DNA of 64,000 nt, from the NCBI GenBank assembly GCA_037042185.1, contig JAXQJY010000023.1:496001-560000 (forward strand). Reading direction: 5' to 3'. Shown one piece after another: positions 36,201 to 64,000 of this stretch (positions are counted from its first letter, which is position 1; each line of letters starts with the position of its first letter). The notes under the pieces are model-generated. The model worked only from the letters and a program-made list of their open reading frames with translations. It made no database searches and was not told the origin of the DNA. The stretch is from Sordariomycetes sp. S80-01Y. Its lineage: Eukaryota > Ascomycota > Sordariomycetes. The position numbers were made by a program, and so were the translations under genes.

Positions 36201-37972
36201 TTACGCATACGCATATGGACTCCCTGCATGGATTCTGCCCGCGCCACACAGGTGCCTCGTCCGTCTTCTTGCAGATGCACCGCGTCCGGACGCGCTTCTA
36301 CCGTTGGACACACCGTGAGCCGTTGACGTCATTCTGCAACGACCAGAGAATCGTATTCTGGTCGTGTTTCTGGTCTGCAGCCAATGGAAGGGGCTGAATC
36401 GAGCAACGCTGTCCCAAAACGACAAGGGGGGCGCCGAGGCTGGGAGGGTCTCCACGCTGCCGGCAATCGCTAAGGTGTTCCTGGCTGAGGTAATACAAGA
36501 TGGCCTCTCTCTTGTCCTTTGTCAGTCTTTGTTGCTGTGGGACATCGCCGTGAACATGTCTTCGGGATGTTATCGTGAAGAAAGTCGTATCTTGCATCAC
36601 ACTGAACATCCATGACTGGGCTCAGTGCTGTTGCACCCCCAGCACAGTCAATTCAACCTCCTGAGGCCGCTGGTGGAGGATTCGTGAGTGGGTGTGCAAC
36701 CCTGTCCATGGGCGCGGGAGCGGCGTAGGATTCGCTCTCCACAGGGCTAGCACTGGCATCAAGATCTCACTCTGGCACAGGGCCATCAGGCTGAGCCGTC
36801 CAGATCCCGTCACAGAATGGCTGACTTTGCCACGCATTCTGAGTATCGGCACCGCTTCTCTGGCATCAGGAATTGGCGGTAGTGGTCTGGTCGAGTGTGG
36901 TGGCTGGGGTTGCGCCGTAAGCTTAATAATAGCCTCATCGTGGACCAGACAGGAGAAACTATTGAGTGCCTCGAATCCAGTCATTGTTGCTACCATTGAC
37001 AGAATACAGAAAAGAAACCCTCTGATCAATTCTGAGAAGTTGCACAAAGTGCACACCCTCCAAGGTCTAATTATGGCTGCTCTTGCTGAGCATCTCGGAT
37101 GAGGCTGAGGCTGAGGCTGACAAGCACACAGTTTCCCACATGCTGATGCCCCAAATAGGTGTGGCGCCATGCTGGCGATCGTAGATCTTGGATTCTGACC
37201 TCCATTCCTTCACCTCGCTCCCTCTTGCAGCCATCGCGACACTAACAGTCCGACAGCCCTACAGCCTCCACTGCCCGTCCCTCCACCGGTATTACGTTTT
37301 GAGCAGCTGTTAGCAGCAATGGATGAAATGCCATGCAGACGGCGCTACAGGGGCCCTGCAACCGCGCCCACCGCCCACGGCGCGCCTCAGCACCCAGCTC
37401 CCCGCCTCGCCCATGTACCCGGCTCCTTCAGCAGAGTGCGAGAGGTACATTTCCATGCCATGATGCCCATGGCGCGGTGGACTGCGGGCTAGGACTGGAC
37501 CAGGATCCAACGGCTGTTTCCATTCGGTCGAGCTGACTGCTTAGTCTGGCCGTGGCGGGTAAGGTAGCTCGCCCCATCGAGTCTCCAAATCCTCGAAACT
37601 CCATCGCCGTGCCCGTAGATCCTCGAACTGAACATTGAAGCCTCCCGCCTCGAGAAACCTTCTTTCTCTCCTGCCCATCTCTTTCCACAGTGATTGTTAC
37701 AGTTGATCTTGCTTCCCGAGCGTCCTAGCTTGAGAATACCCGGACGTGTCTGTCTGCATCTTTGCGCGACGCATCCCACGATTCCGTGAACCGCTTCGAC
37801 GTGCCGCCCCGGTGGTACAACGACCTTTCACGGCAACATTCTCGCGAATCCGCTCCCCCGAAAGCAATCGAGCACTATACGACCACCAATAGAGACCCTA
37901 CGATACCCCTAAACCTCACACAAACCCCAAATACAAACAAATCCCCGACAACGCTGTGCAACACCCACCACC
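33265..37972. other. 4.7 kb gene-less stretch upstream of the NRPS
   Basis: No recognisable gene on either strand; frames such as 36622-37170 (-) have random composition. The last 800 bp is the NRPS promoter region. A CCAAT box lies at 37886-37890, and a C/A-rich, G-poor leader of about 60 bases runs up to the start codon, as is usual for well-expressed fungal genes. Confidence 0.5.
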
Positions 37973-40900
37973 ATGGCGGCACAGCAAATCCCCAACGCCC
38001 CCGAGGCGCGACGAAACGACGAGACGAGCCATGCTAGTGGCAACGACATTCAACAGGCCCTCGACTGGAACACCGAGTTCCCCGAGATTATTGACAGCAC
38101 CATTCACCAACTAATTGAACACCAAGCGCGCACGAGGCCAAACGCGACGGCCATCAGCGCTTGGGATCGCGAGCTCACCTACAGCGAGCTCAACAAGGCC
38201 GCCAACCGACTGGCCCACTACCTGGCCGAATCTTGCGCTGTTTCTCTGGAAGACATAGTTCACGTATGCTTTGACAAGTCGGCGTGGTATTTCGTGGCTA
38301 TTTTGGCCATCAACAAGGCCGGTGCCGTCTGGGCGCCCATCGATCCCTCCCATCCGATTCAGCGCAACCAGTCCGTGGTTTCGCAAACCCGTGCAAAGCT
38401 CATTCTTTCATCCCCCAGCCATGCCGAATTGTGCGCAAGTCTGGTGGGCAAGGTCGTTGAGGTCACGCCTCGCCTCGACGCCCTGCTGGCGCGTAACAAC
38501 CCCCAGTCCAGCTATATCACACCAGAGAGCGGCGTTGGCCCGCGCAATGCGGCTTACATTTTGTTTACTTCCGGTAGCACAGGAACCCCGAAAGGTTTCG
38601 TCATGGAGCATGGCTCCGTTTGCACATCTCAGACAGCCATCGGCCGTCGACTAGGTCTGACAACGGAGGTGCGGATATTGCAGTTCGCAACCTTTGTGTT
38701 CGATCTGTCGATTGGCGAGATCATCGGCCCCTTGATCTTTGGTGCGACTCTCTGTGTTCCATCCGAGGAAACTAGAATGAACAACCTACCTGAATTTATC
38801 CGCGACTCACGTATCTCCTGGGCATACCTCACACCCGCCTTCACCCGCACACTTCGACCGGCGGACTACCCCGGGTTGGAGCTTCTCCTGCTGGCAGGAG
38901 AGGCCGTGGGACAAGATGTGTTGGATACCTGGATCGGCAAGCTGAGACTCATCAACGGATGGGGTCCGGCTGAAACCTGCTGCTTCTCGACTCTCCACGA
39001 GTGGAAATCGAAGGACGAGTCGCCGCTGACAGTGGGAAGACCTGTTGGCGGCCTTTGCTGGATTGTTGACCCCGAAGACCCTCAACAACTGGTCCCTATC
39101 GGGGCGGAGGGAGAGGTCATGATCCAGGGCCCGACGATCCTTCGAGAGTACCTAGCTGATCAGGACAAGACCGAAAAGTCCATGGTCAGGACGCTTCCAG
39201 GCTGGGCCCCGAAGCAGGACGATTCGCTTCACTTTGGTCGATTTTACAAGTCTGGTGATTTGGCAACATATAATGAGGATGGCAGCATCAAATTCGCCAG
39301 CAGAAAGGACACACAGGTTAAGATCCGCGGTCTTCGCGTGGAATTGGGAGAAATCGAGCACCACATTCGCTCTCTGATCCCAGAGGTCCGCCAGGTTGCC
39401 GTTGACGTTTTGAAGACTGACACCAGCGCGAACCTTGTTACCTTCTTCAGCTTCAACGACGACTCACGACCGAGCAGCGACATGTACGATACGAGCGATG
39501 AGAATTCTGTTTTCCTTGAACTTACCCAAGAGCGTCAAGCTCAGCTCGCCGACATGATCGGTCAGCTCGCCTCGCGCCTCCCTAGCTATATGATACCCAC
39601 GATCTTTATTCCCTGCCGCTGGATGCCGTTCATCACTTCTACCAAGCTCGACCGAAAGGGGCTTCAGGCCAAGACCGCTTCTCTGCCCCAGGAGGAGCTG
39701 TCCTCTTACACTTTGCAGGCCACCAGCGCCAGCAAGGCCGCCCCCGAGACCGAGATGGAATCGAGGCTTCAGAAGATCTGGGCCGATGTTTTGAAGGTTG
39801 CTGTTGACAAGATTGGACGAGATGATAGTTTCGTTCGGTTTGGCGGTGACTCCATCGCGGCAATCCGTCTTGTCAACAACGCGCGCGCCGAGGGGATCCT
39901 CTTGCAGGTCAAGTCGATTTTCGAAGACCCGCGTCTCTCCGCCATGGCTGCTCGCGCAGTTGAGGTTGAGGTCAAGGACGAGAAGACCGTTGATGGAGCT
40001 TACGCACCCTTCAGCCTGTTGCCCAAGTCCATCAAGGAGCTGGCCAGGAGCGATGAGGTGCGCCAGAAGTGTGGGCTCACTCGCGATCAAGTCGTCGAAG
40101 ACGCCTATCCCTGCTCCCCTCTCCAGGAAGGTCTGATGGCTCTTGCGGCCAAGAATCCTGGCTCCTACATCGCAAAGTGGGTGTATCGCCTCCAGAAGGA
40201 CACCGACGTCCACCGCTTCAAGCTCGCCTGGGAGCGTACGGTTGAGGCCTGCACGAACCTTCGCACCAGGATTGTCTATCTTCACGGCTCCACCACGCAG
40301 GTTGTCATCAAGAACGACTTCTCGTGGGAGGACACCGATGGACTTTCCCTTCGCGACTTCGTAAAGGCGGCCGAGTCCATTACAATGGGCCCCGGATCCC
40401 GTCTCAACCGCCACGCTCTCGTCCAGGATACTGATGGCGAGCTCTACCTCATCTGGGTCGGTCACCACACAGTTTATGACGGTTGGTCGATGAAACTCCT
40501 CCTTGGCACTTTCTACGATCATTACTACGAAGATGCTGCTACCACCACCCTGGCCCCTTACCCAGCTTTCATCGAGTACGTCCAGAACCTGGACAAGGAG
40601 GACGCAACCGAGTACTGGCGCAAGGAGCTTCACGGTGCCAACCGCGCTGCTTTCCCTCCAAACCCCAAATCGACTGACGATGCCGCCGATCCGAACGCCC
40701 TGACCAAGACCTTCAGCAAGCGCATCCAGTTCCCAGATCTCGACGACAACTCGATTACGAAGGCGACGGTTCTGCGTGCCGCATGGGCCATGATTATCGC
40801 GAGGTACTCCGACTCCGAGGATGTAACCTTCGGATCCACCGTGTCCGGACGCCAGGCTGGTATTGTCGGCATTGAGAACATGCCCGGTCCCGCTATCGCA

Positions 40901-43900
40901 ACTGTCCCTGTTCGAGTGCGTGTCGACCAGCAACAGCCGACGGCTGATTTCCTCGTTGGAGTCCAGGAGCAGGCCCTTGACATGGTGGCTTTCGAACAGT
41001 ACGGTCTGCAGAACATCGCAAAGGTCAGCGACGACGCCCGCGACGCATGCGACTTCTCGTCTCTCCTTGTTCTGCAGCCCATGAAGTACTTGACCGGTGT
41101 GGCGGAGGACTTGCTTGAGCAGAGTAGTGCTGAGGGCAAGAAACTCGAGGAGCTTCCCGAGGGATACTTCAACTACCCATTGGTTGGCCAGTGCTACGTG
41201 TACGACGACTACGTGAACCTCGTTCTGACGTACAAGTCGGACGTGTTGAGCGAGTCGACGTTGCAGGCCCTGTCTAATCAATACAGCAATGTTGTGGAGC
41301 AGCTCCTCCTTCAAAAGGAGGCCACGCTGGGAGACGTTGCTGTTGCGGGTCAGTGGGATCTCGAAAGAACCCTCGAGTTTAACTCGGTCGTCCCCGATGT
41401 CGTTGAGTCGACACTCCATGAGATGATCGAGGAGCAGTCCAAGATTCGCCCCGAGGCTCCTGCAGTGGTAGCCTGGGATCTTGAGCTTTCCTATGCAGAG
41501 CTCAACAGCGCCGCCAACAGACTGGCCAACCACCTGGTCGATACCTTGGGTGTCAAGACGGGTGATTTGGTCCATGTCTGCTTCGAGAAGTCCGCTTGGC
41601 ACTTCGTAGCTATTGTCGCTATCATGAAGGCCGGCGCTGCGTGGGTTCCCCTCGATTCCGGCCATCCAGCTCAACGTCAGCAGCAGGTTGTCTCGCAAAC
41701 GGGTGCTACTCTGGCTCTCGCCTCAGCTACTAACGCCCATATCTGTGAGGGTCTGGTCAAGGAGGTCCTCAAGGTCACGCCAGAGTTGGATCAACAATTG
41801 AAGACTTCCAAGCCCGACTCCTCCAAGCAAGGTCCTGCCAACAAGGCTTCACCAACCGATGCCGCCTACGTCCTCTTCACGTCTGGCAGCACTGGTACTC
41901 CGAAGGGATTAGTCATGCAGCATGGCTCAGTCTGCAGCAGTGCCACAGCTATCGGGAAGAGACTTCGTATCACTCCAGAAGTCCGTATGCTACAGTTCGC
42001 TGCATTCGTGTTCGATCTTTCCATTGGAGAAATCTTTGGTCCGTTGACCCACGGCGGTTCAATCATAGTCCCGTCTGAGGAGATCCGCATGAACGGCATC
42101 AAGCAATTCATCAACGACTACAAGGTGAACTGGAGCTATCTTACTCCCTCATTCGCAAGGACCCTAAGGCCTGATGAGATTCCTAGCCTAGAGTTACTCC
42201 TCTTCGCTGGTGAGGCTGTTCCTAGGGACGTTTTCGACAAATGGTTCGGCAAGGTCAGGTTGATCAACGGTTGGGGTCCAGCCGAAACCTGTTGTTTCTC
42301 GACTTTGCATGAATGGCAATCTGCCGAAGAGTCCCCCTTGAATGTTGGTAAGCCGGTGGGGTCCTTCTGTTGGATCGTGGATCCTCAGAACCCAGCCCGT
42401 CTCGCGCCTGTTGGTACCTTGGGTGAGGTGATGATCCAGGGCCCGACTTTGCTCCGTGAGTACCTAGCAGACAAAGCCAAGACAGATGCTTCAGCCGTCT
42501 ATGAGCTTCCTGGATGGACACCTCGTCGGACCGACTCTTCATTCAAGCGTTTCTTCAAGTCTGGCGACTTATGTAGCTATAACGCCGATGGAACGATCGA
42601 GTTCTCGTCCCGCAAGGACACACAGGTTAAGATTCGAGGTCTCCGTGTCGAGCTTGGCGAAGTTGAGCATCACATCCGTGCCAATCTCAGCTCTGCTAAG
42701 CAGGTTGCTGTGGACGTTTTCCGTACGCAGGCCGGTACCAACCTTGTGGTCTACTTCTGCCTCAACGAGACCTCGAAAACCGCCAACGCTGACGATGAGG
42801 TCTTCCTTCCCCTGTCTCCGGACATGCAGACCCAGCTCAGCGCTATGGTCTCTGAGTTAAGCGTTTACCTACCCAGATATATGATCCCTACGCTTTTCAT
42901 CAACTGCGCCTTCATGCCTTTCATCACGTCCACAAAGCTGGACCGAAAGGGGTTGCAACAGCGTACCGGAGCCTTGACACAAGACGAGTTGGCACAGTAT
43001 GCCCTGTCTGATTCCGAGAAACGACCCCCTGAGACAGACATGGAATTCCGCATGCAGAAGATCTGGGCCCAAACTCTCAATTTGGCTCCTGAGTCAATTG
43101 GACGCGACGACTCTTTCCTTCGCATTGGTGGTGACTCGATTGCTGCTATTCACTTGGTCACGGCTACTCGCGAGGACGGACTGCTTTTGACAGTCAAAGA
43201 CATCTTTGACGATCCCCGTCTCTCGAGCGTTGCGGCCAAGTGCGAGGTTGCTGATGGCAACGTTCCGGATTACTCGGATGTTCCAGCGTTCAGTCTCCTT
43301 GATACCTCGCGCAAGGAGGTTGTCGCCGAAGAAACTCACAAGCAGTGCAAACTGAATGCTTCGCAGCAGGTTGTGGACGCCTATCCCTGCACTGCTCTCC
43401 AGGAGGGTCTCATGGCCCTCTCGATGAAGCAGCCCGGATCCTACATCGCCAAGTGGGTTTACCGTCTTGGTGATGATGTCGAGACCGAGGCCTTTAAGAC
43501 GGCTTGGAACATGACTGTCCAGACGTCTCCCAACCTGAGGACCCGGATGGTCCAAGTTCTGGGCAAGACAATCCAAGCTGTTGTTACTGACGATGTCGAG
43601 TGGGATTCCACTGACGGGCTTAACCTGACACAGTACCTCGATGTTGCCCAGAATATCAAGATGACTTTCGGTTCCAGACTGAGCCGCTACGGCCTGGTCG
43701 AAGAGGGCAAAGATCGTTACTTTGTTTGGATCGCCCACCACGGAATCTACGACGGATGGACCATGCGATTGATGTTATCAACGGTAGCGGACTTGTATCA
43801 GGGATACGAGACCCTGGAGCTGAAGCCATACTCCAGCTTCATCAAGTACACCCAGAACATCAACCACGACGATGCTGTCAGCTTCTGGCGCAACCAGCTC

Positions 43901-55900: not shown

Positions 55901-58900
55901 CCTGGCATGTATCTTATTTTCCAAGGTATGCCAAATAAGACTACCTCGGGCAAGGTCGATAGGAAGCAGCTCTGCCAAATTGCTCGCGCTTCTGAAGCCA
56001 AGGACAGGCTCAAGTTCAGCCCCGGTGGCAACAACAGCGAGCCTCCTGCGACCGACATGGAATTCAAGCTCCGCGATCTGTGGGCCCAGGTCCTCAACAT
56101 CAATGCTTCTGATGTCGGTCGCCAGGACAGCTTCTTGCGCGCTGGCGGTGATTCGATCACTGCTATTCGCCTGGTCTCTGCTGCCCACGAAAAGGGTATC
56201 GGTCTGTCCGTTGAGATGATATTCCAGGATCCTCGCCTCTCGTCAATGGCCGAGGCCGCCACTCAGATCAAGGTAGATGAATCTGCCTTCGAGACTGAGC
56301 GCTTCAGCTTGCTCCCGCAAGGTCAGGCTGAAACAATTGCTTCCGAAGCCCGCAAGCAGTGCGGGTTGTCTAGTGAGGAAGACATCGAGGACATCTATCC
56401 CTGCACGAAATTGCAAGAGGGTCTTCTTGCTTTGGCTGTCAAACAGCCTGGCTCTTACGTCGCGAAGCAGGTTCTTCAAGTTTCGCCTCACATCGATATT
56501 GCCCGCTTCAAGACTGCATGGGAGCAAACGGTCGCCGCGTGCACCAACCTCCGCACGCGTATCATCTCTATTGGCGGAGCTTCTTACCAGGTCATTGTCA
56601 AGAACCCGGTCACTTGGGACGACACCGCCGGCTTTGATCTCAATACTGCCGTTAGTGCCGCTTCCAATGTTAAGATGGGTTACGGCACGCCACTCAGCCG
56701 CTTTGCCATTGTCGAGGAGGCGAAGACGGAAGAAGAGAAGGAGGAAAACGAAGAGGATGAGGTCAACAAATTCCTAATCTGGACAGTCCATCATGCTACC
56801 TTTGATGGCTGGTGCATTCGCATTGTTCTCGACGCGCTTTCCAACGCCTACCAAGGCTTGGAGATGCCTAACCTCCGGCCTTTCGCTGGCTTCATCAAAT
56901 TTGTCACCAGCATTGATCACGATGAAGCTGCCGACTACTGGCAGACTCAGCTTGCCGATGCCAAGCGTGCATCGTTCCCTCCAACAGGCGAGGATACCTC
57001 CAAGAAGCAGCACAAGATGTTGCGCAAGACTATTCCTTTCCCCGAATCCGACAAGACCTCCATCACAAAGGCTAATGTCATCCGCGCAGCCTGGGCTATG
57101 GTATTGGCTCGTCACTCCGACACCGATGATGTGACATTTGGAGCCACAGTCTCCGGAAGACAGGCCCCTGTGCCTGGGATGGAGACCATCGCTGGACCAG
57201 TGCTCGCTACTGTGCCTGTCCGGGTTCGCTTGGAAGGCAAGCAGTCTGTTGATGCCTATCTCAAGGAAATCCAGAAGCAGGCTATGGACATGGTACAGTA
57301 CGAGCAATTCGGTCTGCAAAACATCTCCAAGCTGAGCCACGAGGCTCGAGAAGCTTGCAATTTCTCAAGTCTGCTGCTGATCCAGCCTGCTCAGCAGTTC
57401 TTCGAAGAGAGCTCCGACTCTGTTGTTGCGCCCCCTCACCCTGATAAGTATGAGGTTGGTGAGGCTCTAGAGGGATATTTCTCCTACCCTCTTGTCCTCC
57501 AAGCTCAGGTTGCCGACGACCATGTCGATCTCTACTTCAGCTATCACGCCAATGTCGTTAAGGAATCCCACCTGGACGCAATCTCTCACCAGTTGGATCA
57601 CGTCATCAACCAGTTGGTCACAAAGGATGATGCTGCTGTCGAAGATATCTCGGTCGCTGGATCTTGGGATCTGGAGCAAGCCAAGAGCTGGAATACCGAC
57701 TCAAAGCTTGTTGCTTCTTGCGCGCACGATCTCATTGCTGAACAAGCCTCCAGCGGTGGTGACCGAGAGGCCATCTTTTCAAGTGAGATATCTCTTACGT
57801 ACGCGGAATTGGATCGTAAGACCTCTGAGCTTGCTGCCCACCTCGTTGGGCTCGGAGTTGGTCCTGAGACTGCCGTGCCGATCTGCTATGAGAAGTCTGC
57901 TTGGGCTATCGTGGCTATGATCGCCATCATGAAAGCTGGCGGCATGTTTGTACCTCTTGACCCTCAGCATCCTTCGGGTCGCCGAAAGGATCTTGTTGCC
58001 GAGGTCGGAGCCAAGTACATGATCGTCTCGCCTCAGACTGCTGAGCTCTGCGAGGGTCTTACATCGAACAACATTGAGCTTACTGCCAGTTCTTTCGCAA
58101 AATTCCCCAAGGATAGCCCCAAGATGGACATCAAGCCTGACAACGCTGCTTATGTGCTCTTCACCTCCGGATCTACAGGCAAGCCCAAGGGCGTTGTCAT
58201 GGAGCATCAAGCCCTCAGCTCCAGCAGCGTTCTTGGCCACGGAAAGACCTACAGGCTCGACAAAGAGTCCCGTGTCCTTCAGTTCTCTAACTATGTCTTT
58301 GACGTTAGTCTGGGAGAAATCTTTAGCACCCTCATTCATGGTGGCTGCGTTTGTGTTCCCAACGAGGCAGAACGTCTTCAGGGCACTGCTGCCTTCATCA
58401 ACAAGGCTGCCGTCAACACAGCCATGTTAACACCTTCATTTGCCAGAACCATTCCACCTCGCCAAGTTCCTGGTCTGAAGAAGCTCGTGGTTGGTGGAGA
58501 AGCTCCTACCAAGGATACCTTGGCTATGTGGTTCGACCATGTAGAGCTGATCAACGGCTACGGACCAGCCGAGGCTTGCATTTACTGCTGTACGTACGAC
58601 TTCCAGAGTAAGCACGAAGCTCCTGGCACAATTGGTTGTGGCGCAAACAACTCTACCTGGGTTGTCGACCCTGAGAGCCACGACCGTCTCGCGCCTGTTG
58701 GCACGGTTGGTGAGCTCCTCATCCAAGGCTACGCCTTGGCTCGTGGATACATTAACAATGATGAGCTCACAAAAGAGTCATTTATCGAAAGTGTCTCATG
58801 GCTTCCCATCTCCCAATCGCCTGAAGCGCCTCGTTTCTACAAGACGGGTGACCTAGTCAGGTATCTCCCCAACGGTACTCTGGAGTATCTCGGCCGCAAG

Positions 58901-61900
58901 GACGCCCAGGTCAAGGTTCGTGGACAACGCATGGAGCCTGGCGAGATCGAGTACGCAGTCAAAAGAGTTGCCGATAACGTCGACCACGTTGCTGTCGACG
59001 TGATCCGCTCTGGCAACAAAGAGTCCCTTACTGCTTTCATTAGCTTCACTGGAAAGACCGGTGGCGATGATTTCTTCCTCGGTCTCGACGATGAGATGAA
59101 GGAATCCATCACTACCATATCCGCCGAGCTCAAGAACATTCTCCCTGGCTTCATGGTGCCGTCACTCTTCTTACCTGTCCGCTCCATGCCATTTGTTAGC
59201 GCCATGAAGATGGACCGCAAGCAACTTCGCGAAACCGCTCACGGACTCGGACCCGAGGTCATCGCCACTTATGCGGGCATCAGTCGTCAGAAGATCGAGC
59301 CCACTACCGAGATGGAGTTCCGTCTTCGTAAAGTCTGGGCTGAAGTCCTGGACGTGTCTGCTGAGGACATTGGCAAAAGCGACAGCTTCCTGCAAATCGG
59401 CGGAGATTCAATCTCCGCAATCGAGCTTGTCTCTGCTGCCCAGGATCACGGAATTCGCATCACGGTTGCCGATATTTTTGAGGATGCCCGACTTTCAACT
59501 CTGTCTGAGTCCGCAATGGAGGCTGGCGACGCGCCCACCTACGACACCGAGCCATTCGGCTTACTTGACGGCGATGTCGACACTTACAAGTCCGAGATCG
59601 CGACCAAGTGTGGTCTGAAGGACAACCAGGCTGTCGAGGATGCATACCCTTGCGCCCCTCTTCAGCAAGGATTGATGGCATTGGCTGTCAAGCAGCCTGG
59701 GTCTTACATTGCAAAGCATGCCTTCCGCCTCAACAGGCTTGTTGATGTGAACAAATTCAGGGCTGCTTGGGAGAAGACGGTATCGGTGTGCGCCAACCTC
59801 CGTACCCGTATCGTCGAGATCAATGGCTCTCCCGTTCAGTCTGTCATTGAGAATGACATCAAGTGGGACTCTTTTGGCGAGCGCAACTTGGCTGGCCTTA
59901 TGGAAGCTTCTCAGGATGTCCGAATGACTTACGGCTCGAGACTTAACCGCTTCAGTGTTGGTCGCGAAGCTGACGGCGAGTACAGCTTCCTCTGGCTAAG
60001 CCACCATACCGTATTTGATGGCTTTTCCCTACGAATCGTTCTGGAGACTCTTTATCAGGCTTACGGAGACGAAGAACTACCCCCCATCAAGCCTTATTCC
60101 GGCTTCATCTCCTATACACAACAAATGGACAAGGCTGGCGCCGAGGAATTCTGGAGTCAACAGCTCCGTGGTGCACAACGTGCCTCTTTCCCCCCACGCA
60201 AGCACACTGCTGAGCCGAGTGTCACTCGTTTCTTGACGAAGACTATTTCGCTTCCTGAGACCACTGGAACCTCGATCACCAAGGCCTCCACTTTGAGGGC
60301 GGCTTGGGCTATGGTTTTGGCTAGGTACTGCGACACCGATGATATTACTTTTGGTGCCACGGTATCTGGTCGTAACGCCCCCGTTCCTGGCCTTGGTGCC
60401 ATGCCAGGTGCTATGATTGCTACTGTGCCAGTCCGCCTCCGCCTCAACCCCGACCAGTCTGTCCAAAGCTTCCTCAAGGATGTGCAGACGCAAGCTTCGG
60501 AGATGATTGCTTGGGAGCAATTCGGTCTGCAGAATATCTCTAAGCTCGGACCTGATTCTAAGGAGGCCTGCGATTTCAGTTCGCTGATGGTCATCCAACC
60601 ATTCCAGCAGATGGGCTTAACCAGCAGCGTGGAGAATGATTTGCTATTGCCCGCAAAGTCCGACCAGAACAGCATCGAGGACTCCATGCAGGGCTACTTT
60701 TCTTACCCCCTTGTGATGCAGGGCGCTCTATCTGACGAAAGCCTCGAGCTTTACCTGATTTACGACTCCAAAGTCCTACAAGAGAACCAGCTGCAAGCTA
60801 TGGCTCATCAATACGAGCAAGTCGTGCACGCTCTTCTTGACCAAGGAGAGGATCGCCATATTGGTGAGATTCTCATGACTTCTGATTACGACGTCGCCAA
60901 GGCAATGGAGCTTCGGGGTGATGTTCCCGACGTCATCGACGACTGCGTACACAGCATAATCGAGCGTCAGGCTCAAGGTACTCCTGACGCCCCGGCTATC
61001 TATGCCCACGACGGTCAATTCACCTACAGGGAACTCAATGCCGCTTCGAACCGCCTCGCCCACTACCTTGTTCGCGAGTTCGATGTGAAGGTGGGTGATA
61101 TCATCCACCTCTGCTTCGAAAAGTCAGCCTGGCATTTCGTTGCTATGCTCGCTGTTAACAAGACGGGCGCCTCTTGGTCCCCCATTGACCCGTCACACCC
61201 CCTTCAACGTAAGCAGCAAATCACGGAACAAACGCAGGCCAAGATCGCTTTGGCGTCCTCAGCCCATACCACCACATGCGGAGAGCTGGTTGAGAGTGTG
61301 ATCGAGGTCACTGCCGATCTTGACGCCGACCTCGAAAGGGTCGACAGCGCCCCCAAGACAAGAGTCACCTCTCGTGATGCGGCTTATGTGCTATTCACGA
61401 GTGGCTCTACTGGCGTGCCCAAGGGCTTCGTTATGGAGCATCGAGCACTCTGCTCATCCCAGAAGGCTATTAGTGAGCGACTGAACCTCACTTCGAATGT
61501 GCGTATGCTACAGTTCGCAGCCTTCGTTTTCGACCTTTCAATCGGTGAGATCTTCGGCCCACTCACAAACGGAGCTTGCCTGTGTATCCCCTCTGAGGAT
61601 ATGCGATCCAACGACGTTCGTGGCTTTATCAAAGAAGCCAACGTCACTTGGGCCTATCTTACTCCCGCCTTCGCCCGCACGATCAAGCCTCAGGACGTTC
61701 CCTCCGTAGAGCTTGTACTCTTTGCTGGTGAAGCTGTACCACGCGATGTCTTCGAGCAATGGTTCGGACAAGTGCGGCTTGTCAACGGATGGGGACCTGC
61801 CGAGCACTCTGTGTTCTCAACCCTGCACGAGTATCGATCCCTCGAGGACTCGCCAGCCACAATCGGACGACCTGTTGGCGCATTTGCCTGGATTGTTGAT

Positions 61901-64000
61901 CCCAATGATTCTAGTAAACTAGCACCGATAGGTACTGTCGGCGAGGTTATGATCCAAGGGCCAACGCGCCTTCGCGAATACCTCGCTGATCGGGAGAAAA
62001 CTGATGCCACCCTCACCCAGGACTTACCATCTTGGGCGCCACGCTCTGACGAGTCGGCTTTCAACTCCTTCTTTAAGAGCGGTGATCTTTGCTACTACAA
62101 TCCCGACGGAACCATTGAATTTGCCAGCCGCAAAGATACCCAAATCAAGATTCGTGGCTTGCGTGTTGAGTTGGGCGAGGTTGAGCACCACATCCTGCGC
62201 ACCTTGAATGGTGTCAATACTGTTGCCGTCGATGTGTTACGAAACGAGGCTGGTGCCCAGCTCGTCGCCTACTTCTCGATGAACAACGACAACAGGACCG
62301 CAGGCGTCGATCTCGACCCCGCGATGGACGGCATGTTTGGAGAGATCACGCCTGAGATTGAGTCTCAGCTTGCCGCCATGGTTGGTGAGCTTAGGATTAC
62401 GCTCCCTGCGTATATGGTCCCTTCTCTCTTTATCCCCTGCAAGTTCATGCCCTTCAACACCTCGTCTAAGCTGGATCGTCGAGCCCTGCGTACCCATACG
62501 GCAAGCTTGGAGCGCGAAGATCTCTTCAAGTATGCTCTTGTATCTGGCAAGAAGCGCGCTCCCGAGAGTCAAATGGAACAACGTCTGCAAGCTTTGTGGG
62601 CCGAAGTCCTTCAATTACCCACCGAAGCGATCGGTCGTGATGACAGTTTCCTTGGTTTAGGCGGAGACTCGATCACCGCCATGTCCCTTGTTACTGAGGG
62701 CCGGGCCAAGGGATTGGTCATCACAGTCAAGGATATCTTCAGCGATCCTCGACTTTCCGCTGTGGCCCGCAAGACGGCTGAGGCTGGCGCCGAGACCGAA
62801 GCCAAGCTTTCTCCTTTCGATCTCCTGAGCCAGCAACTGCGCGAGCTCGTTACCAGTGCTGTGGCTCGCGAACAGTGCGGTCTATCTGCTTCTCAGGAGA
62901 TTGAAGACGCCTATCCCTGCACCTCAGTTCAGGAAGGGCTGATGGCTCTTGCCGTCAAGGAGCCTGGGTCCTACATTGCTAAGCATCTTTACAAGCTCGG
63001 ACCTCATGTTGACATCGCCCGATTCAAGCAGGCTTGGGAAACCACCATCGAGAAGTGCGGTAACCTTCGCACGAGAATCGTAGACGTTGGCGGTGCCTCG
63101 TTGCAAGTCTTAGTCAAGCCCGACACCCACTGGGAGGAGACCAATGGTCTCGACCTGGAGTCTTTCCTCAAGAAGACTGAGACCTTTGAAATGCGCTACG
63201 GTACGCCTTTGTGCCGTTATGCTCTCTTCCGCGAAGCTTCAGGCGCGCACTACTTTGTCCTTGTTCTCCACCACGCCGTGTCTGACGGCTTCTCGCTTGT
63301 CATCAATATGAACACGCTGGAGAGCGCCTACAAGGGTGAGGACATCGAGCTTGAGCCATATGCCGGCTTCATCAAGTACATCACCGAAGTGGACCAGGGC
63401 GCAGCCCGTGACTTCTGGAACACCCAGCTCGATGGTGCACAGAGAGCGTCCTTCCCACCAATGCAGCCTTATGCAGGTGCTGAGAACCAGAAAGTCCGCC
63501 TTCTGAAGAGAAGCATCAATTTCCCTCAGCGTGGAAGCAGTTCCATCACCAAGGCTTCCGTTATTCGGGCTGCTTGGGCTATTGTTCTAGCTCGCTACTC
63601 CGACAGTCAGGACATCACCTTTGGCACCACTGTCAGCGGTCGTCAAGCGCCAGTTCAAGGTCTCGAGAGCATGGCTGGACCGGCTGTGGCAACTGTCCCT
63701 GTTCGCGTCCGCATTGACCAGACCCAGTCTGTGTCCAATTACCTACGGACAATTCAGACTCAAGCCTCGGACATGATTCCCCATGAGCAATTTGGCATGC
63801 GCGGTATCATGCAATTAGGTGCTAATGCCAAGGAGGTGTGCGACTTCTCGTCTCTCCTAGTCATTCAGCCTATGCAGAAACTCATTACTGAAGAGAAATC
63901 TGACTCTATTTTGATATCGGATACCGAGAAATACTCGGTTGAAGCTTCAATGGAGGGCTACTTCACATATCCTCTAGTCACCGATGCTCTCGTCTACGAC
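37973..64000 (+). CDS. giant A-T-C modular nonribosomal peptide synthetase, 3' end beyond window
   Basis: One intronless frame of 8,676 codons, open at the window edge. The ATG at 37973 sits in the context CACCACCATGG and is followed by about 40 residues before the first A domain. Eight modules of about 3.25 kb repeat in the order A-T-C. Every A domain has the A3 core (FTSGSTGxPKG), A5 (GPAE), A7 (SGD or TGD) and the A10 lysine. Every T domain has GGDS with the phosphopantetheine serine. Every C domain has an intact HHxxxDG. No epimerisation, N-methylation, cyclisation or release domain occurs in the visible part, so the residues should be L or achiral and unmethylated. The enzyme starts with an A domain, so the first residue is loaded as a free amino acid. 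Pocket codes suggest several Aib-type residues. The end of the protein, and hence the release mode, lies outside the window. Confidence 0.97.
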   Translation, partial: MAAQQIPNAPEARRNDETSHASGNDIQQALDWNTEFPEIIDSTIHQLIEHQARTRPNATAISAWDRELTYSELNKAANRLAHYLAESCAVSLEDIVHVCFDKSAWYFVAILAINKAGAVWAPIDPSHPIQRNQSVVSQTRAKLILSSPSHAELCASLVGKVVEVTPRLDALLARNNPQSSYITPESGVGPRNAAYILFTSGSTGTPKGFVMEHGSVCTSQTAIGRRLGLTTEVRILQFATFVFDLSIGEIIGPLIFGATLCVPSEETRMNNLPEFIRDSRISWAYLTPAFTRTLRPADYPGLELLLLAGEAVGQDVLDTWIGKLRLINGWGPAETCCFSTLHEWKSKDESPLTVGRPVGGLCWIVDPEDPQQLVPIGAEGEVMIQGPTILREYLADQDKTEKSMVRTLPGWAPKQDDSLHFGRFYKSGDLATYNEDGSIKFASRKDTQVKIRGLRVELGEIEHHIRSLIPEVRQVAVDVLKTDTSANLVTFFSFNDDSRPSSDMYDTSDENSVFLELTQERQAQLADMIGQLASRLPSYMIPTIFIPCRWMPFITSTKLDRKGLQAKTASLPQEELSSYTLQATSASKAAPETEMESRLQKIWADVLKVAVDKIGRDDSFVRFGGDSIAAIRLVNNARAEGILLQVKSIFEDPRLSAMAARAVEVEVKDEKTVDGAYAPFSLLPKSIKELARSDEVRQKCGLTRDQVVEDAYPCSPLQEGLMALAAKNPGSYIAKWVYRLQKDTDVHRFKLAWERTVEACTNLRTRIVYLHGSTTQVVIKNDFSWEDTDGLSLRDFVKAAESITMGPGSRLNRHALVQDTDGELYLIWVGHHTVYDGWSMKLLLGTFYDHYYEDAATTTLAPYPAFIEYVQNLDKEDATEYWRKELHGANRAAFPPNPKSTDDAADPNALTKTFSKRIQFPDLDDNSITKATVLRAAWAMIIARYSDSEDVTFGSTVSGRQAGIVGIENMPGPAIATVPVRVRVDQQQPTADFLVGVQEQALDMVAFEQYGLQNIAKVSDDARDACDFSSLLVLQPMKYLTGVAEDLLEQSSAEGKKLEELPEGYFNYPLVGQCYVYDDYVNLVLTYKSDVLSESTLQALSNQYSNVVEQLLLQKEATLGDVAVAGQWDLERTLEFNSVVPDVVESTLHEMIEEQSKIRPEAPAVVAWDLELSYAELNSAANRLANHLVDTLGVKTGDLVHVCFEKSAWHFVAIVAIMKAGAAWVPLDSGHPAQRQQQVVSQTGATLALASATNAHICEGLVKEVLKVTPELDQQLKTSKPDSSKQGPANKASPTDAAYVLFTSGSTGTPKGLVMQHGSVCSSATAIGKRLRITPEVRMLQFAAFVFDLSIGEIFGPLTHGGSIIVPSEEIRMNGIKQFINDYKVNWSYLTPSFARTLRPDEIPSLELLLFAGEAVPRDVFDKWFGKVRLINGWGPAETCCFSTLHEWQSAEESPLNVGKPVGSFCWIVDPQNPARLAPVGTLGEVMIQGPTLLREYLADKAKTDASAVYELPGWTPRRTDSSFKRFFKSGDLCSYNADGTIEFSSRKDTQVKIRGLRVELGEVEHHIRANLSSAKQVAVDVFRTQAGTNLVVYFCLNETSKTANADDEVFLPLSPDMQTQLSAMVSELSVYLPRYMIPTLFINCAFMPFITSTKLDRKGLQQRTGALTQDELAQYALSDSEKRPPETDMEFRMQKIWAQTLNLAPESIGRDDSFLRIGGDSIAAIHLVTATREDGLLLTVKDIFDDPRLSSVAAKCEVADGNVPDYSDVPAFSLLDTSRKEVVAEETHKQCKLNASQQVVDAYPCTALQEGLMALSMKQPGSYIAKWVYRLGDDVETEAFKTAWNMTVQTSPNLRTRMVQVLGKTIQAVVTDDVEWDSTDGLNLTQYLDVAQNIKMTFGSRLSRYGLVEEGKDRYFVWIAHHGIYDGWTMRLMLSTVADLYQGYETLELKPYSSFIKYTQNINHDDAVSFWRNQLEDAKKATYPPTAKASISKGDKVTRLMRNRIEFPSTNTSVTKATIIRAAWAIVLARYCDTDDVTFGTTVSGRHAPVPNLGEMPGPMVATVPVRVRLDQEQRISTYLNRIQSQASDMIAYEQFGMQHIAKITPEAQEACDFSSLLVIQPFQQMAAVGAHSDAILEMDASAKHGTEDTLEGYFSYPLVLQGEVSDAHVDLVLTYDSEILKESQMTQLSRHFEHVVHQLLAQDNTPLSEVSVAAPWDMEKAYEYNREETDLVTSTLHDLIAKQAETRPDALAINAWDKQFTYKEYNAAADRLASFLVQEHEVQSGDLVHVCFEKSAWHFVTILAIMKTGAAWVPLDPGHPAERQKQVINQTKARLALVSPSNVSVCDKLVEKVLVVTASLDEKLREKPEYAAGPGLEVSSRNAAYVLFTSGSTGTPKGLVMEHGSVCTSARAIGKTLGLTPEVRMLQFAAFVFDLSIGEIFGPLTLGGSLCIPSEHDRLNDLTGYIRKEEVNWSYLTPAFARTIKPAEVPSLKLLLFAGEAVPRDVFEQWFGKVRLANGWGPAETCCFSTIHEWKSFDESPLNIGRPVGGNIWIVDANDPQRLAPIGTIGEAVIQGPTILREYLADKAKTDAATVLSLPEWAPKREHHPYNRFFKSGDLVSYNADGTIEFSTRKDTQVKIRGLRVELGEVEHHIQTNLEGARQVAVDVLRTETGTNLVAYFCFTDDSKTAGANNDGDEGPFMPLSPYLQSQLTAMVGALSVSLPRYMIPTLFIPCSYMPFITSTKLDRKGLRALTAKLGQEELATYALQDSEKRAPETPMEERLQTIWAEILNRSKESIGRDDSFLRIGGDSVAAIHLITTARNDGIQLSVKDIFDDPRLFAVASKAVETDSGVTDTKIEPYSLLSDAQKDFVMQKALKEQCGGLDASQVYDAYPCTPLQDGLIALSAKQPGSYITKYFFKIPNSIDLDRFKKSWEKTIDRCDNLHTRIVTTGHSSVQLLVQDEKSWEDTDGLTVNEFIERTNHYEMTYGSRLSRHALVKEGDNTTFIWVCHHSVIDGWALKLVQDVLHATYWEIEGPKVEPYAGFVKFTESIEPEAAGAYWKGQLEGANRPSFPPTSGVDTSAEIKVTSRNIDIPLEMNSSITKATVLRAAWSITLARHNGSDDIVFGSTVSGRNAPVNGLQNMTGPAIATVPVRVALDREQRVSEFLRDIQNQASDMVAYEQFGLPNISRLGVSAKEACDFSSLIVIQPRQYMDNMDEAPDDAVMVFGQDQYEMTEQQMSNYFNYPLVLLSMLYEDHIEIRFFRNTSVIAESQIEAIGHQLDHVVQQLLEHQTSKLSDISLVGPWDIAHAIKSSNIAEPVEQCTHWLIKEQIKIRPNSYALEGHDGDLTYKEFGRLVTNLAAKLRELGVGPEVLVPFCFPKSTWAVVSMIAIELAGGALCPLDPAAPVQRISGIVDDCRAKLVLAHPECAKKIEEVGVKALIIDEAMVRALPDADEVDSGATPDNVSFVIFTSGSTGKPKGMLIEHRAICTAMFGYGVTPGIGPDTRTFAFSAYVFDVGIFDVLTTLVRGGTICVPSDHDRQNDLAGAINRFKANFLFTTPTVAGLLTPAEVPTLKTLCVGGEFISRKVVDPWTGHARVHGLYGPAEASVCGWREDINLQAKTNNLGIPLCTAYWIVEPDNIKELVPVGCIGEALIQGPTLARGYVNVEEKAMRNWIDNAYWLPDTGSNVSKRAYLSGDLLRRNEDGTFDYMGRKDTQIKLHGQRVELGEIESRIEQQMPDGMGAIVEVVGGVDTTKDTLMALIWNTNAPADSPLRLVDELSTDQQALISQVDNAIASALPAYMMPSTYLVFAGRPEQTPSGKVNRRHLSGLAKEVPAHTRAKFAPGAMEAEPPTEPMEFRLRDLWGEILGIDAEKIGKNDSFLRLGGDSISAIKLVTLAQQRGVSLTVSTIFKDSRLSQMAASAKVDDSEAHSLETTPFSMIPQDKIDDMITSVQDQCGITDRNAIEDIFPCTALQEGLMALAIKQPGSYMAKEVYRLASDVNIGRFKRAWESVVAESGNLRTRIIRFNRSLMQVVLKTSTWENIRAHDMRSLMHEAAKTDVELGSPLCRYALFKEDDGSYYFGIIIHHAIFDGWTLGLIFNALRQAYEEDEIYSFNRYASFVKYTQQIDQEVATDFWKKQLTGARRATFPPSQAPGVSSTKTRVLNRKFDFPYSGNTSITRATILRAAWALVLGRYSDSDDVTFGATVSGRNAPVPGLSDMPGPVIATVPIRIQMSKATPVSDFLQQIQMQASEMVDFEQFGLASIAKIHPDIAEAIRFSSLVVVQPFQQMGLATAGSDAELFTVDEGKFKPEEALSGYFSYPLVLQCILLEEQIELALTYDANVVSEEQLKAMSYQFEGVVHQLLHPRPKPVGAIDVASQWDRKQAALLNAERPEIVNECLHDMIEKQAEIRPDSVAIRGWDRILTYKELIRHANRLANHLTDDYGVKPHDLVHVCFDHSAWYFVSVLAVNKCGAAWVPLDPSQPPQRHKQVADQTQAAVCLASTVHVDRCSELFKHVIAVNEDLDDKLVQKPQTSERGPDVTITPRHAAYVLFTSGSTGTPKGLIIEHMGVCTSMMESSARIGITPKVNILQFASYVFDMSVCETFGPLLRGASVCVPSEDIRMNGLIEFINDMDINTLYLTPAFALTIQPEDVPQVNLLLFAGEAVSQKVFDQWFGKVRMINGWGPAETCCFSTLHEWKSADESPLCIGKPVSGFCWIVDPEDPTKLAPIGTEGEVVIQSPAILREYLSAPDKTEAAVMTDLPEWAPERDTRPWNRFFKSGDLCTYNPDGTLKFGSRKDNQVKIRGLRIELGEVEHHISTTLDGAEQVAVDVLKNEQGSTLVAYFAFSNDSRTAGQEGADEDMFLPMDAELQARITALVAVLSVNLPRYMIPTLFVPCKWMPFVTATKLDRKTLRARTLEMTQDQISAYGLQNSEKRAPETEMETRLQQIWADVLHISPESIGRDDSFLGIGGDSISAIHLMTAARHNGIVVKVRDVFNDPRLSAVAAAATEAPLPNEDDSKIRPFDLLTHADRKVVFGNSLRSQCDITKDEEIEDAYPCSALQEGLMALAVKQPGSYITKYFFQIPGHMDIEKWKKAWERTVQLCGNLRTRIVASKDHAVQVILKNELSWEPTEGLDLDEFVKVSQGYKMSFGSRLCRYAIITQPTGENYFVWITHHSIVDGWCVQIALKTLHSAYWDESPSQLPSYAGFIKYAYSIDETAANQFWKKQLDGAQKPSYPPPAPVGKKADYHVTYKKIAVPLRMEGSITKASVLRTAWSVVLARHCSSDDVTFGATVSGRNAAVEGLQDMPGPVIATVPVRIKLNPQGTVESLLQSVQNQASEMIAYEQRGIQNIAKLSQGARQACDFSSLMVIQPRQYLDSMSNAVIMDGNDGTEMTEQEMNSYFNYPLVLLSLMYEDHVEVRFFYDKNVLAEKEVQAVSYQLDHVMQQLFAKKTKFLGQLSLIGPWEKQHALRATKLKAPTNSCIHWMIEEHIRSQPDAPAVASWDGDLTYEDLGKYASRLAAKLQKLGVGPGDMVPFSFPKSTWAVVAMVAIQIAGGAFVPLDPTAPAGRLQSIIEDTKAELVLTSPNTRDAVKNLNVETLDVDVQFLASLPVPRQSIAPVTEPSDASFVIFTSGSTGKPKGMIHEHSAIASSAEGYGVCQGIGPGTRVFAFSNYTFDVGVMDVLVTLARGATICIPSDYERYNDISGAINRMQANWAFLTPTVASLINPADTPTMKKIGFGGEVVTKKVVDLWKDHAELHGLYGPAEASICAWRPNVGQVGKPSNIGTPLSCAFWVVDPEDPRQLVPVGCVGELMIQGPLLARGYINADEAANAAWLHDVDWLPGDMPKKAYRTGDLVRRNDDGTFEYMGRKDTQVKLHGQRIELGEIESRIHEFLPENMDAITDVVKNDSGSDVLAALLWYSSGTTSEASELQLADEATEDMQQLISHLDSSLGMSLASYMMPGMYLIFQGMPNKTTSGKVDRKQLCQIARASEAKDRLKFSPGGNNSEPPATDMEFKLRDLWAQVLNINASDVGRQDSFLRAGGDSITAIRLVSAAHEKGIGLSVEMIFQDPRLSSMAEAATQIKVDESAFETERFSLLPQGQAETIASEARKQCGLSSEEDIEDIYPCTKLQEGLLALAVKQPGSYVAKQVLQVSPHIDIARFKTAWEQTVAACTNLRTRIISIGGASYQVIVKNPVTWDDTAGFDLNTAVSAASNVKMGYGTPLSRFAIVEEAKTEEEKEENEEDEVNKFLIWTVHHATFDGWCIRIVLDALSNAYQGLEMPNLRPFAGFIKFVTSIDHDEAADYWQTQLADAKRASFPPTGEDTSKKQHKMLRKTIPFPESDKTSITKANVIRAAWAMVLARHSDTDDVTFGATVSGRQAPVPGMETIAGPVLATVPVRVRLEGKQSVDAYLKEIQKQAMDMVQYEQFGLQNISKLSHEAREACNFSSLLLIQPAQQFFEESSDSVVAPPHPDKYEVGEALEGYFSYPLVLQAQVADDHVDLYFSYHANVVKESHLDAISHQLDHVINQLVTKDDAAVEDISVAGSWDLEQAKSWNTDSKLVASCAHDLIAEQASSGGDREAIFSSEISLTYAELDRKTSELAAHLVGLGVGPETAVPICYEKSAWAIVAMIAIMKAGGMFVPLDPQHPSGRRKDLVAEVGAKYMIVSPQTAELCEGLTSNNIELTASSFAKFPKDSPKMDIKPDNAAYVLFTSGSTGKPKGVVMEHQALSSSSVLGHGKTYRLDKESRVLQFSNYVFDVSLGEIFSTLIHGGCVCVPNEAERLQGTAAFINKAAVNTAMLTPSFARTIPPRQVPGLKKLVVGGEAPTKDTLAMWFDHVELINGYGPAEACIYCCTYDFQSKHEAPGTIGCGANNSTWVVDPESHDRLAPVGTVGELLIQGYALARGYINNDELTKESFIESVSWLPISQSPEAPRFYKTGDLVRYLPNGTLEYLGRKDAQVKVRGQRMEPGEIEYAVKRVADNVDHVAVDVIRSGNKESLTAFISFTGKTGGDDFFLGLDDEMKESITTISAELKNILPGFMVPSLFLPVRSMPFVSAMKMDRKQLRETAHGLGPEVIATYAGISRQKIEPTTEMEFRLRKVWAEVLDVSAEDIGKSDSFLQIGGDSISAIELVSAAQDHGIRITVADIFEDARLSTLSESAMEAGDAPTYDTEPFGLLDGDVDTYKSEIATKCGLKDNQAVEDAYPCAPLQQGLMALAVKQPGSYIAKHAFRLNRLVDVNKFRAAWEKTVSVCANLRTRIVEINGSPVQSVIENDIKWDSFGERNLAGLMEASQDVRMTYGSRLNRFSVGREADGEYSFLWLSHHTVFDGFSLRIVLETLYQAYGDEELPPIKPYSGFISYTQQMDKAGAEEFWSQQLRGAQRASFPPRKHTAEPSVTRFLTKTISLPETTGTSITKASTLRAAWAMVLARYCDTDDITFGATVSGRNAPVPGLGAMPGAMIATVPVRLRLNPDQSVQSFLKDVQTQASEMIAWEQFGLQNISKLGPDSKEACDFSSLMVIQPFQQMGLTSSVENDLLLPAKSDQNSIEDSMQGYFSYPLVMQGALSDESLELYLIYDSKVLQENQLQAMAHQYEQVVHALLDQGEDRHIGEILMTSDYDVAKAMELRGDVPDVIDDCVHSIIERQAQGTPDAPAIYAHDGQFTYRELNAASNRLAHYLVREFDVKVGDIIHLCFEKSAWHFVAMLAVNKTGASWSPIDPSHPLQRKQQITEQTQAKIALASSAHTTTCGELVESVIEVTADLDADLERVDSAPKTRVTSRDAAYVLFTSGSTGVPKGFVMEHRALCSSQKAISERLNLTSNVRMLQFAAFVFDLSIGEIFGPLTNGACLCIPSEDMRSNDVRGFIKEANVTWAYLTPAFARTIKPQDVPSVELVLFAGEAVPRDVFEQWFGQVRLVNGWGPAEHSVFSTLHEYRSLEDSPATIGRPVGAFAWIVDPNDSSKLAPIGTVGEVMIQGPTRLREYLADREKTDATLTQDLPSWAPRSDESAFNSFFKSGDLCYYNPDGTIEFASRKDTQIKIRGLRVELGEVEHHILRTLNGVNTVAVDVLRNEAGAQLVAYFSMNNDNRTAGVDLDPAMDGMFGEITPEIESQLAAMVGELRITLPAYMVPSLFIPCKFMPFNTSSKLDRRALRTHTASLEREDLFKYALVSGKKRAPESQMEQRLQALWAEVLQLPTEAIGRDDSFLGLGGDSITAMSLVTEGRAKGLVITVKDIFSDPRLSAVARKTAEAGAETEAKLSPFDLLSQQLRELVTSAVAREQCGLSASQEIEDAYPCTSVQEGLMALAVKEPGSYIAKHLYKLGPHVDIARFKQAWETTIEKCGNLRTRIVDVGGASLQVLVKPDTHWEETNGLDLESFLKKTETFEMRYGTPLCRYALFREASGAHYFVLVLHHAVSDGFSLVINMNTLESAYKGEDIELEPYAGFIKYITEVDQGAARDFWNTQLDGAQRASFPPMQPYAGAENQKVRLLKRSINFPQRGSSSITKASVIRAAWAIVLARYSDSQDITFGTTVSGRQAPVQGLESMAGPAVATVPVRVRIDQTQSVSNYLRTIQTQASDMIPHEQFGMRGIMQLGANAKEVCDFSSLLVIQPMQKLITEEKSDSILISDTEKYSVEASMEGYFTYPLVTDALVYD
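38090..41370 (+). other. NRPS module 1 (A1-T1-C1), loading module
   Basis: A1 spans about 38090-39660, T1 about 39745-39960 with its serine at 39851 (residue 627), and C1 about 40015-41370 with HHTVYDG at 40463-40483. The inferred A1 pocket code is DLGYLAGCFK, read from FDLSIGE, WAYLTP, LLLLAGE and NGWGPAETCCF plus the A10 Lys. There is no C domain before A1. The residues just before it, DWNTEFPEIIDSTIHQLIE, resemble the linkers that follow the internal C domains. Confidence 0.93.
41371..44640 (+). other. NRPS module 2 (A2-T2-C2)
   Basis: A2 spans about 41400-42960, T2 serine is at 43136 (residue 1722), and C2 has HHGIYDG at 43736-43756. The inferred pocket code is DLGYLAGCFK, identical to A1 and A3. 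C2 ends in a stretch with LLVIQPFQQM and GYFSYPLVLQ that recurs in C4 and C7. Confidence 0.92.
44641..47905 (+). other. NRPS module 3 (A3-T3-C3)
   Basis: A3 spans about 44670-46240, T3 serine is at 46412 (residue 2814), and C3 has HHSVIDG at 47012-47032. The inferred pocket code is DLGYLAGCFK. C3 belongs with C5: both read SYITKYFF, VIQPRQY, MTEQ and NYFNYPLVLLS or SYFNYPLVLLS, and differ there from the other six C domains. Confidence 0.92.
47906..51140 (+). other. NRPS module 4 (A4-T4-C4), second A lineage
   Basis: A4 spans about 47950-49470, T4 serine is at 49652 (residue 3894), and C4 has HHAIFDG at 50249-50269. The inferred pocket code is DVFFCGLVCK, read from FDVGIFD, FLFTTP, LCVGGE and HGLYGPAEASVC. 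A4 and A6 share features absent elsewhere: FDVGxxD, KLHGQRxELGEIESRI, YMMP and SGKV in core A10. I cannot assign the substrate with confidence; it is probably not the residue chosen by A1-A3. Confidence 0.9.
51141..54405 (+). other. NRPS module 5 (A5-T5-C5)
   Basis: A5 spans about 51180-52745, T5 serine is at 52922 (residue 4984), and C5 has HHSIVDG at 53528-53548. The inferred pocket code is DMCYLAGCFK (from FDMSVCE), the A1-type pocket with two changes. This may mean a slightly larger or different small residue such as isovaline or valine. C5 is the close relative of C3. Confidence 0.9.
54406..57670 (+). other. NRPS module 6 (A6-T6-C6), second A lineage, acidic insert in C6
   Basis: A6 spans about 54455-55970, T6 serine is at 56153 (residue 6061), and C6 has HHATFDG at 56789-56809. 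The inferred pocket code is DVMFGGLICK, related to A4. Just before the C6 active site, at about 56714-56770, there is an unusual run EEAKTEEEKEENEEDEVNK that the other C domains lack; they have a short loop there. Confidence 0.9.
57671..60895 (+). other. NRPS module 7 (A7-T7-C7)
   Basis: A7 spans about 57715-59225, T7 serine is at 59408 (residue 7146), and C7 has HHTVFDG at 60002-60022. The inferred pocket code is DVGMVGGIYK, unlike all others here. Core A8 reads GQRMEPGEIEY, with Pro where the other modules have Leu (RVELGE). The substrate is not assigned; a small pocket with aliphatic lining suggests an aliphatic residue. Confidence 0.9.
60896..64000 (+). other. NRPS module 8 (A8-T8-partial C8)
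   Basis: A8 spans about 60945-62490, T8 serine is at 62669 (residue 8233), and C8 has HHAVSDG at 63269-63289. C8 is cut by the window edge just after EGYFTYPLVTDALVYD. The inferred pocket code is DLGYLAGVFK, one change from A1-A3 (NGWGPAEHSVF instead of NGWGPAETCCF). At least one more module must follow, since an internal C domain of this type accepts a further residue. Confidence 0.92.

Follow-up and report, generated by a model that had tools for sequence, protein, structure and literature searches.

Gene organization of the locus

The window, i.e., the whole 64,000-nucleotide stretch of DNA that was analysed, ends inside a very large NRPS gene. The genes to its left, the gap before it and the NRPS reading frame are listed here.

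9276-12470, plus strand: Rxt3 protein, histidine-rich (Pfam)
15117-16794, plus strand: PHO4 phosphate transporter, in two pieces (Pfam)
27786-28598, minus strand: fungal rhodopsin-domain protein (Pfam)
30178-31661, plus strand: FAD-binding oxidase, two putative exons (FAD_binding_4, 78.2 bits; BBE, 17.5 bits, below its cut-off of 20.6)
31662-37972, no strand: upstream gap without an NRPS or PKS domain (six-frame Pfam search and tblastn)
37973-64000, plus strand: NRPS ORF, 3' end incomplete (8,676 codons, Kozak-like start, in-frame stop at 37910)

The NRPS frame extends from the ATG at 37973 over 26,028 nt (8,676 codons) without a single stop codon and is open up to the window edge, exactly as the original prediction had stated. 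As a control, 50 single-base shuffles of the window were read in the three forward frames. The longest stop-free run was 314 codons, and a chance ORF was rejected on this comparison. The window covers only the 5' portion of this fungal multimodular NRPS gene, which continues past the window edge. No intron was found across the 26 kb within the window, in agreement with the predicted intronless structure.

Pfam was run on nine of the 16 ORFs that precede the NRPS and on one further exon. In addition to the genes listed, the scan revealed a DUF1674 protein, a cytidylyltransferase-like protein and two ORFs without any family. Neither KS nor AT was found in these ORFs and the exon or in the six frames of 31663-37972, and the scanned ORFs and exon contained no Aib-supply gene. 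The FAD-binding oxidase is the nearest upstream gene found and has the same direction as the NRPS; alone among the ORFs scanned, it is a possible cluster member or tailoring enzyme. The rhodopsin-domain, PHO4 and Rxt3 genes are not typical of NRPS clusters, which suggests that any cluster begins on its left side with the NRPS and would extend mainly to the right of the NRPS start. No tRNA was found in the 64-kb window.

Domain architecture of the synthetase

Sequence motifs place the domains of the NRPS in the order A1-T1-C2-A2-T2-...-A8-T8-C9, with eight A, eight T and eight C domains. All are on the plus strand.

37973-38068, plus strand: N-terminal 32 residues, of which residues ~23-33 are linker-like by eye
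38069-39718, plus strand: A1, code DLGYLAGC, Aib-like (7/8)
39728-39952, plus strand: T1 (motifs)
40055-41365, plus strand: C2, HHTVYDGW (motifs)
41381-43003, plus strand: A2, code DLGYLAGC, Aib-like (7/8)
43013-43237, plus strand: T2
43328-44638, plus strand: C3, HHGIYDGW
44645-46279, plus strand: A3, code DLGYLAGC, Aib-like (7/8)
46289-46513, plus strand: T3
46604-47914, plus strand: C4, HHSVIDG, groups with C6
47900-49519, plus strand: A4, code DVFFCGLV, nearest Pro (6/8), groups with A6
49529-49753, plus strand: T4
49841-51151, plus strand: C5, HHAIFDGW
51158-52789, plus strand: A5, code DMCYLAGC, Aib-like (5/8)
52799-53023, plus strand: T5
53120-54430, plus strand: C6, HHSIVDGW, groups with C4
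54407-56020, plus strand: A6, code DVMFGGLI, Pro (6/8) or Ala (5/8), groups with A4
56030-56254, plus strand: T6
56381-57691, plus strand: C7, HHATFDGW
57665-59275, plus strand: A7, code DVGMVGGI, Gln (6/8) or Ala (5/8)
59285-59509, plus strand: T7
59594-60904, plus strand: C8, HHTVFDGF
60899-62536, plus strand: A8, code DLGYLAGV, identical to the published Aib code (8/8)
62546-62770, plus strand: T8
62861-64000, plus strand: C9, HHAVSDGF, cut by the window edge

On the protein, the A3 motif, GPAE, RKDxQxK, GGDS and HHxxxDG were each counted eight times, in strict A-T-C order, and the A10 lysine is present in all eight A domains. Narrower patterns caught fewer motifs (A5 in 6/8, A8 in 4/8 and A10 in 0/8). 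A Pfam search of the NRPS, divided into two overlapping pieces, revealed AMP-binding, Condensation and PP-binding domains. In the second piece, SIDD_N also scored 31.7 bits within C9 (cut-off 27), although no individual stretch reached the threshold, and CBP_BcsG was under its Pfam cut-off. The best 25 of 98 and the best 25 of 101 NCBIfam families were generic adenylation, NRPS and acyl-ligase models, and the PDB relatives of A1 were LgrA, GrsA and SidN. A1 is the first catalytic domain, as predicted, and neither motifs nor Pfam revealed an E or MT domain in the 8,676-codon frame, which was expected as well. The prediction of at least eight A-T-C modules holds in so far as A and T occur together eight times and C occurs eight times; the last C domain is incomplete at the edge (380 residues, compared with the 437 taken for the other C domains).

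The modules are not uniform, contrary to what had been proposed. Three classes of A domain were found: A1, A2, A3, A5 and A8 share 54-68% identity among themselves, A4 and A6 are 52% identical to each other and 30-36% identical to the first class, and A7 stands apart at 34-42%. In unrooted trees of eight rows each, A4/A6 and C4/C6 both split off at 100/100, and most other forks were open. This joint grouping suggests that a C-A unit was copied. T4 is equally close to T7 and T6.

Two long open frames lie antisense to the NRPS. One, of 744 codons (39464-41698, minus strand), is opposite the end of A1 through C2 into A2, and the other, of 464 codons (54794-56188), is opposite A6-T6. Both are probably shadows of codon bias.

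Pocket codes of the A domains

Eight-residue codes were read with anchors placed by GrsA numbering, which we take to assign the pocket positions in these A domains. A PDB search with the 121-residue core of A8 as a check of this numbering gave no match at E up to 1e-10. The reference set consisted of 12 published codes from one synthetase type, the 20-module Trichoderma synthetases (Table 5, PMC6606783), in which Aib is represented by DLGYLAGV and DLGFLAGV, Pro by DVLFCGLI and Gln by DGGMVGGN, and the Ala codes include DILFNGLI. A8 is identical to a published Aib code, A1-A3 differ from it by one change, and A5 agrees at 5/8 positions. The codes of A4-A7 are identical to none in that table; the A7 code differs from the Gln code at positions 236 and 330.

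The summed best match of the eight domains to the 12 Trichoderma codes was 52/64. Shifting one anchor by 1-3 residues lowered this sum to 44-50, and shifting all anchors by 1-5 residues lowered it to 7-18. Position 278 was re-placed by a recount after Table 5 was known, so that its placement is not blind: the sum was 52 at the present place, 44/64 with the position four residues further on and 50 with it five residues on. When position 278 was omitted, the sum was 44/56 and the nearest residue was unchanged for all eight A domains. We also compared the order of the codes with the T. reesei synthetase at 13 offsets, and modules 1-8 fitted best (38/64). Reference positions 12 (used in the order fit only) and 17 are gaps in T. 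reesei and were filled from T. citrinoviride. Because 7.6% of module permutations fitted modules 1-8 equally well, the fit is no more than suggestive, and we do not regard it as established that the domains are co-linear with the first eight modules of a 20-residue peptaibol synthetase.

The codes, compared with Trichoderma codes alone, suggest peptaibol-like A domains, and they may not be special to peptaibiotics. On balance, we regard an A-first, Aib-type synthetase that makes a peptide with a free or cyclised N terminus as the probable reading. It is also possible, although on the unlikely side, that the enzyme is an ordinary A-first (A-T-C)n cyclopeptide synthetase with a terminal C domain, in which the DLGYLAG pockets select a small residue other than Aib, such as Ala or Abu. 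As far as the available parts of the descriptions go, A-first multimodular synthetases are common in fungi, the A domains of the euascomycete group diversify through module duplication, and only the length of the present enzyme would exceed what is reported. Signature codes also predict imperfectly: in Table 5 of PMC6606783, 11 of the 20 positions showed agreement in all four species, and an accessible part of PMC12192607 describes signature comparison as limited for peptaibol synthases. Against this, A8 matches the Aib code exactly and A1-A3 come within one position of it, and A4/A6 and A7 are nearest to the peptaibol Pro and Gln codes, which an unrelated synthetase need not share.

Start of the reading frame and the upstream gap

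An in-frame TAA at 37910 lies 21 codons upstream of the ATG at 37973, whose context is Kozak-like (ACCACCATGG). The dicodon score, from a model trained on the NRPS ORF itself, sets in at about 37964. When aligned by a common anchor and compared by eye, residues ~23-33 of the NRPS resemble the internal C-A linkers of M1-M8, and the N terminus of the protein would therefore correspond to the place where C1 would end.

The next gene found upstream ends at 31661, leaving a gap of 6.3 kb before the NRPS ATG. Pfam searches of 31663-37972 in all six frames, with stops read as X, gave no match to KS, AT, A, T or C domains. A tblastn search with the 24 A, T and C domains of the NRPS against 1-37972 gave six matches, the best with E = 0.23, and revealed no relic. 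Within 31663-37972, no KS-AT or C exon of the kind that would have overturned the original prediction was found. The predicted absence of PKS-like sequence upstream holds in all six frames; the distance searched is 6.3 kb rather than the 4.7 kb given. The free or later-modified N terminus that was proposed is a direct consequence of an A-first start with no KS, AT or C upstream. In view of the peptaibol-like codes, the absence of the starter is more notable than originally held.

The sole match above a curated cut-off in the gap was a DUF3669 fragment on the minus strand (32462-32602), which scored 28.5 bits (cut-off 22) with E = 1.4e-6 and is perhaps what is left of a gene. A unit of ~284 bp occurs twice, head-to-tail and about 90% identical, at 32693-33264 in a lower-GC stretch before the NRPS. 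It is perhaps a degraded repeat element.

Two further explanations concern the start. It is distinctly improbable that the enzyme is a long peptaibol synthetase whose KS-AT-ACP and C1 were deleted, or whose starter is encoded separately and acts in trans, with an acetylated, linear product bearing a C-terminal alcohol. This would suit a protein that begins inside a C-A linker and a code order that fits best at peptaibol positions 1-8 of the 13 offsets. There are also partial precedents on record, as far as the relevant parts of the descriptions extend: a 15-module synthetase of T. endophyticum without KS, whose product is acetylated, and the two-gene synthetase NPT2 in Tolypocladium. However, C1 is gone too, so no domain seen could join acetyl to residue 1; the 6.3 kb upstream holds no starter domain or relic, and the order fit is weak, being equalled by 7.6% of permutations. 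A misplaced start, with an upstream C or KS-AT exon spliced in, is very improbable: introns are frequent in fungal genes and acceptor-like CAG sites at 37984 and 38056 are both in phase 0 with the NRPS frame, but no exon to splice onto either was found by Pfam in six frames (31663-37972, 6.3 kb) or by tblastn with the protein's own A, T and C domains (1-37972, 38 kb), and the ATG at 37973 has its Kozak-like context.

Proposed assembly and product

In the A-first, Aib-type reading, Aib or a similar small residue (Iva or Ala) would be loaded straight onto T1 without an acyl starter. C2 would join the residue on T1 to that on T2, and the chain would then be extended module by module, in the predicted order Aib-Aib-Aib-[Pro-like]-Aib-[Pro/Ala-like]-[Gln-like or nonpolar]-Aib-.... 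C9 may pass the chain to a ninth module or may end the enzyme; the former appears more likely because C9 keeps HHxxxDG.

Because C1 and KS-AT-ACP are absent, residue 1 should retain a free alpha-amine. Within a terminal C domain, this amine could attack the thioester at the C terminus of the chain and thereby close a ring. We give head-to-tail closure about an even chance and would favour it over linear release by a reductase or thioesterase, on the basis of the release ends described for other fungal synthetases. In the parts of the descriptions at hand, the A-first multimodular NRPSs of P. nodorum (4/4, Table 3) and the two cyclopeptide candidates of S. apiospermum (CDS6317 and CDS10511) all end in C, 6/6 in total, and a role of terminal C domains in the cyclisation of peptides in fungi has been reported. 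SimA, for which the accessible text describes 11 C-A-T modules, has a terminal C domain (PMC6168864). A terminal C thus occurs outside the A-first enzymes as well: the C-first SNOG_09488 has one, according to the same P. nodorum material. The complete combination, in which peptaibol-type modules in an A-first, terminal-C architecture make an Aib-rich peptide of at least eight residues with no acyl starter and a head-to-tail ring, i.e., a macrocyclic relative of the peptaibols, is unlikely when all its parts are taken together.

Peptaibols act on membranes as N-capped helices. If the same kind of module can occur without the capping starter, cap and body may evolve separately, and an assembly line without the cap would suggest Aib-rich peptides that keep a free amine or close into a ring. 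The NRPS described here offers a concrete case for the choice between acyl-started linear and amine-started cyclic products in fungal synthetases.

Comparison with known synthetases

In peptaibol synthetases, C1 stands behind KS-AT-ACP. This starter is the first part of the enzyme and acylates residue 1, according to the accessible part of PMC11610996. Similar to Tex1 of Trichoderma virens and its 14- to 20-module relatives, the present NRPS is encoded by a very long gene with repeated modules lacking E and MT, and it has Aib-type codes (A8 identical, A1-A3 with one change) with codes nearest Pro and Gln between them. In contrast to the Tex1 type, it lacks KS-AT-ACP and C1 and starts at A1. 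At the C terminus, Tex1-type enzymes have a reductase that releases an amino alcohol; the corresponding end of the present enzyme would lie past the window edge. In the absence of the starter, we do not class the NRPS as a peptaibol synthetase, despite its similar-looking modules; its sequence suggests an assembly line for Aib-rich peptaibiotics that lacks the KS-AT-ACP starter.

In beginning with A and repeating A-T-C, the NRPS resembles A-first fungal enzymes such as SNOG_01105 of P. nodorum, described as five A-T-C, and CDS6317 of S. apiospermum, described as having six modules. A free amine at residue 1 is expected for these enzymes from the portions of their descriptions available, as it is for the NRPS here. 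Those described in the same sources reach at most six modules, whereas eight A-T pairs are present here, and CDS6317 carries an E domain, whereas the portion of the NRPS seen has none. Size and an A-first start do not by themselves make the synthetase undescribed. The original proposal was overstated in this respect, as four of the six multimodular NRPSs of P. nodorum in the Table 3 consulted are A-first and S. apiospermum has such enzymes too.

An intronless giant gene is likewise not enough for this. The talaropeptide synthetase gene of Talaromyces (45.9 kb) is also very large and intronless in the description excerpted; its enzyme, however, is C-first with methyltransferase domains, whereas the NRPS here is A-first and shows no MT in the portion seen. 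The lipopeptaibiotic synthetases LcsA (leucinostatin) and ConB-D (coniotin) likewise have many modules and make Aib-containing products, but, in the passages available, PKS genes located in their cluster act with them. LcsA has ten C-A-PCP modules there and is therefore C-first, unlike the present NRPS. Outside Trichoderma, the peptaibiotic NRPSs of Tolypocladium (8 to 16 modules in the available description) are similarly large and of the Aib type. NPT2 of this genus begins with KS and AT in the part of PMC11610996 concerned, unlike the NRPS here; an A-first member may occur among the others in that account.

A search of the open-licence literature for starter-less peptaibol synthetases and uncapped peptaibols gave no relevant match. 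Words of the "cyclopeptaibiotic" type do occur in papers of that literature, one of which deals with chlamydocin-like tetrapeptides, and large cyclic peptaibiotics may be in print. The combination of an A-first start, Aib-type codes and such length was not found among the matches listed from the open-licence literature, whose text was available in part, and this is no proof of novelty. Taken together with the known systems, the NRPS is a plausible variant of known enzymes, and its new point would be that peptaibol-like codes stand in an A-first frame.
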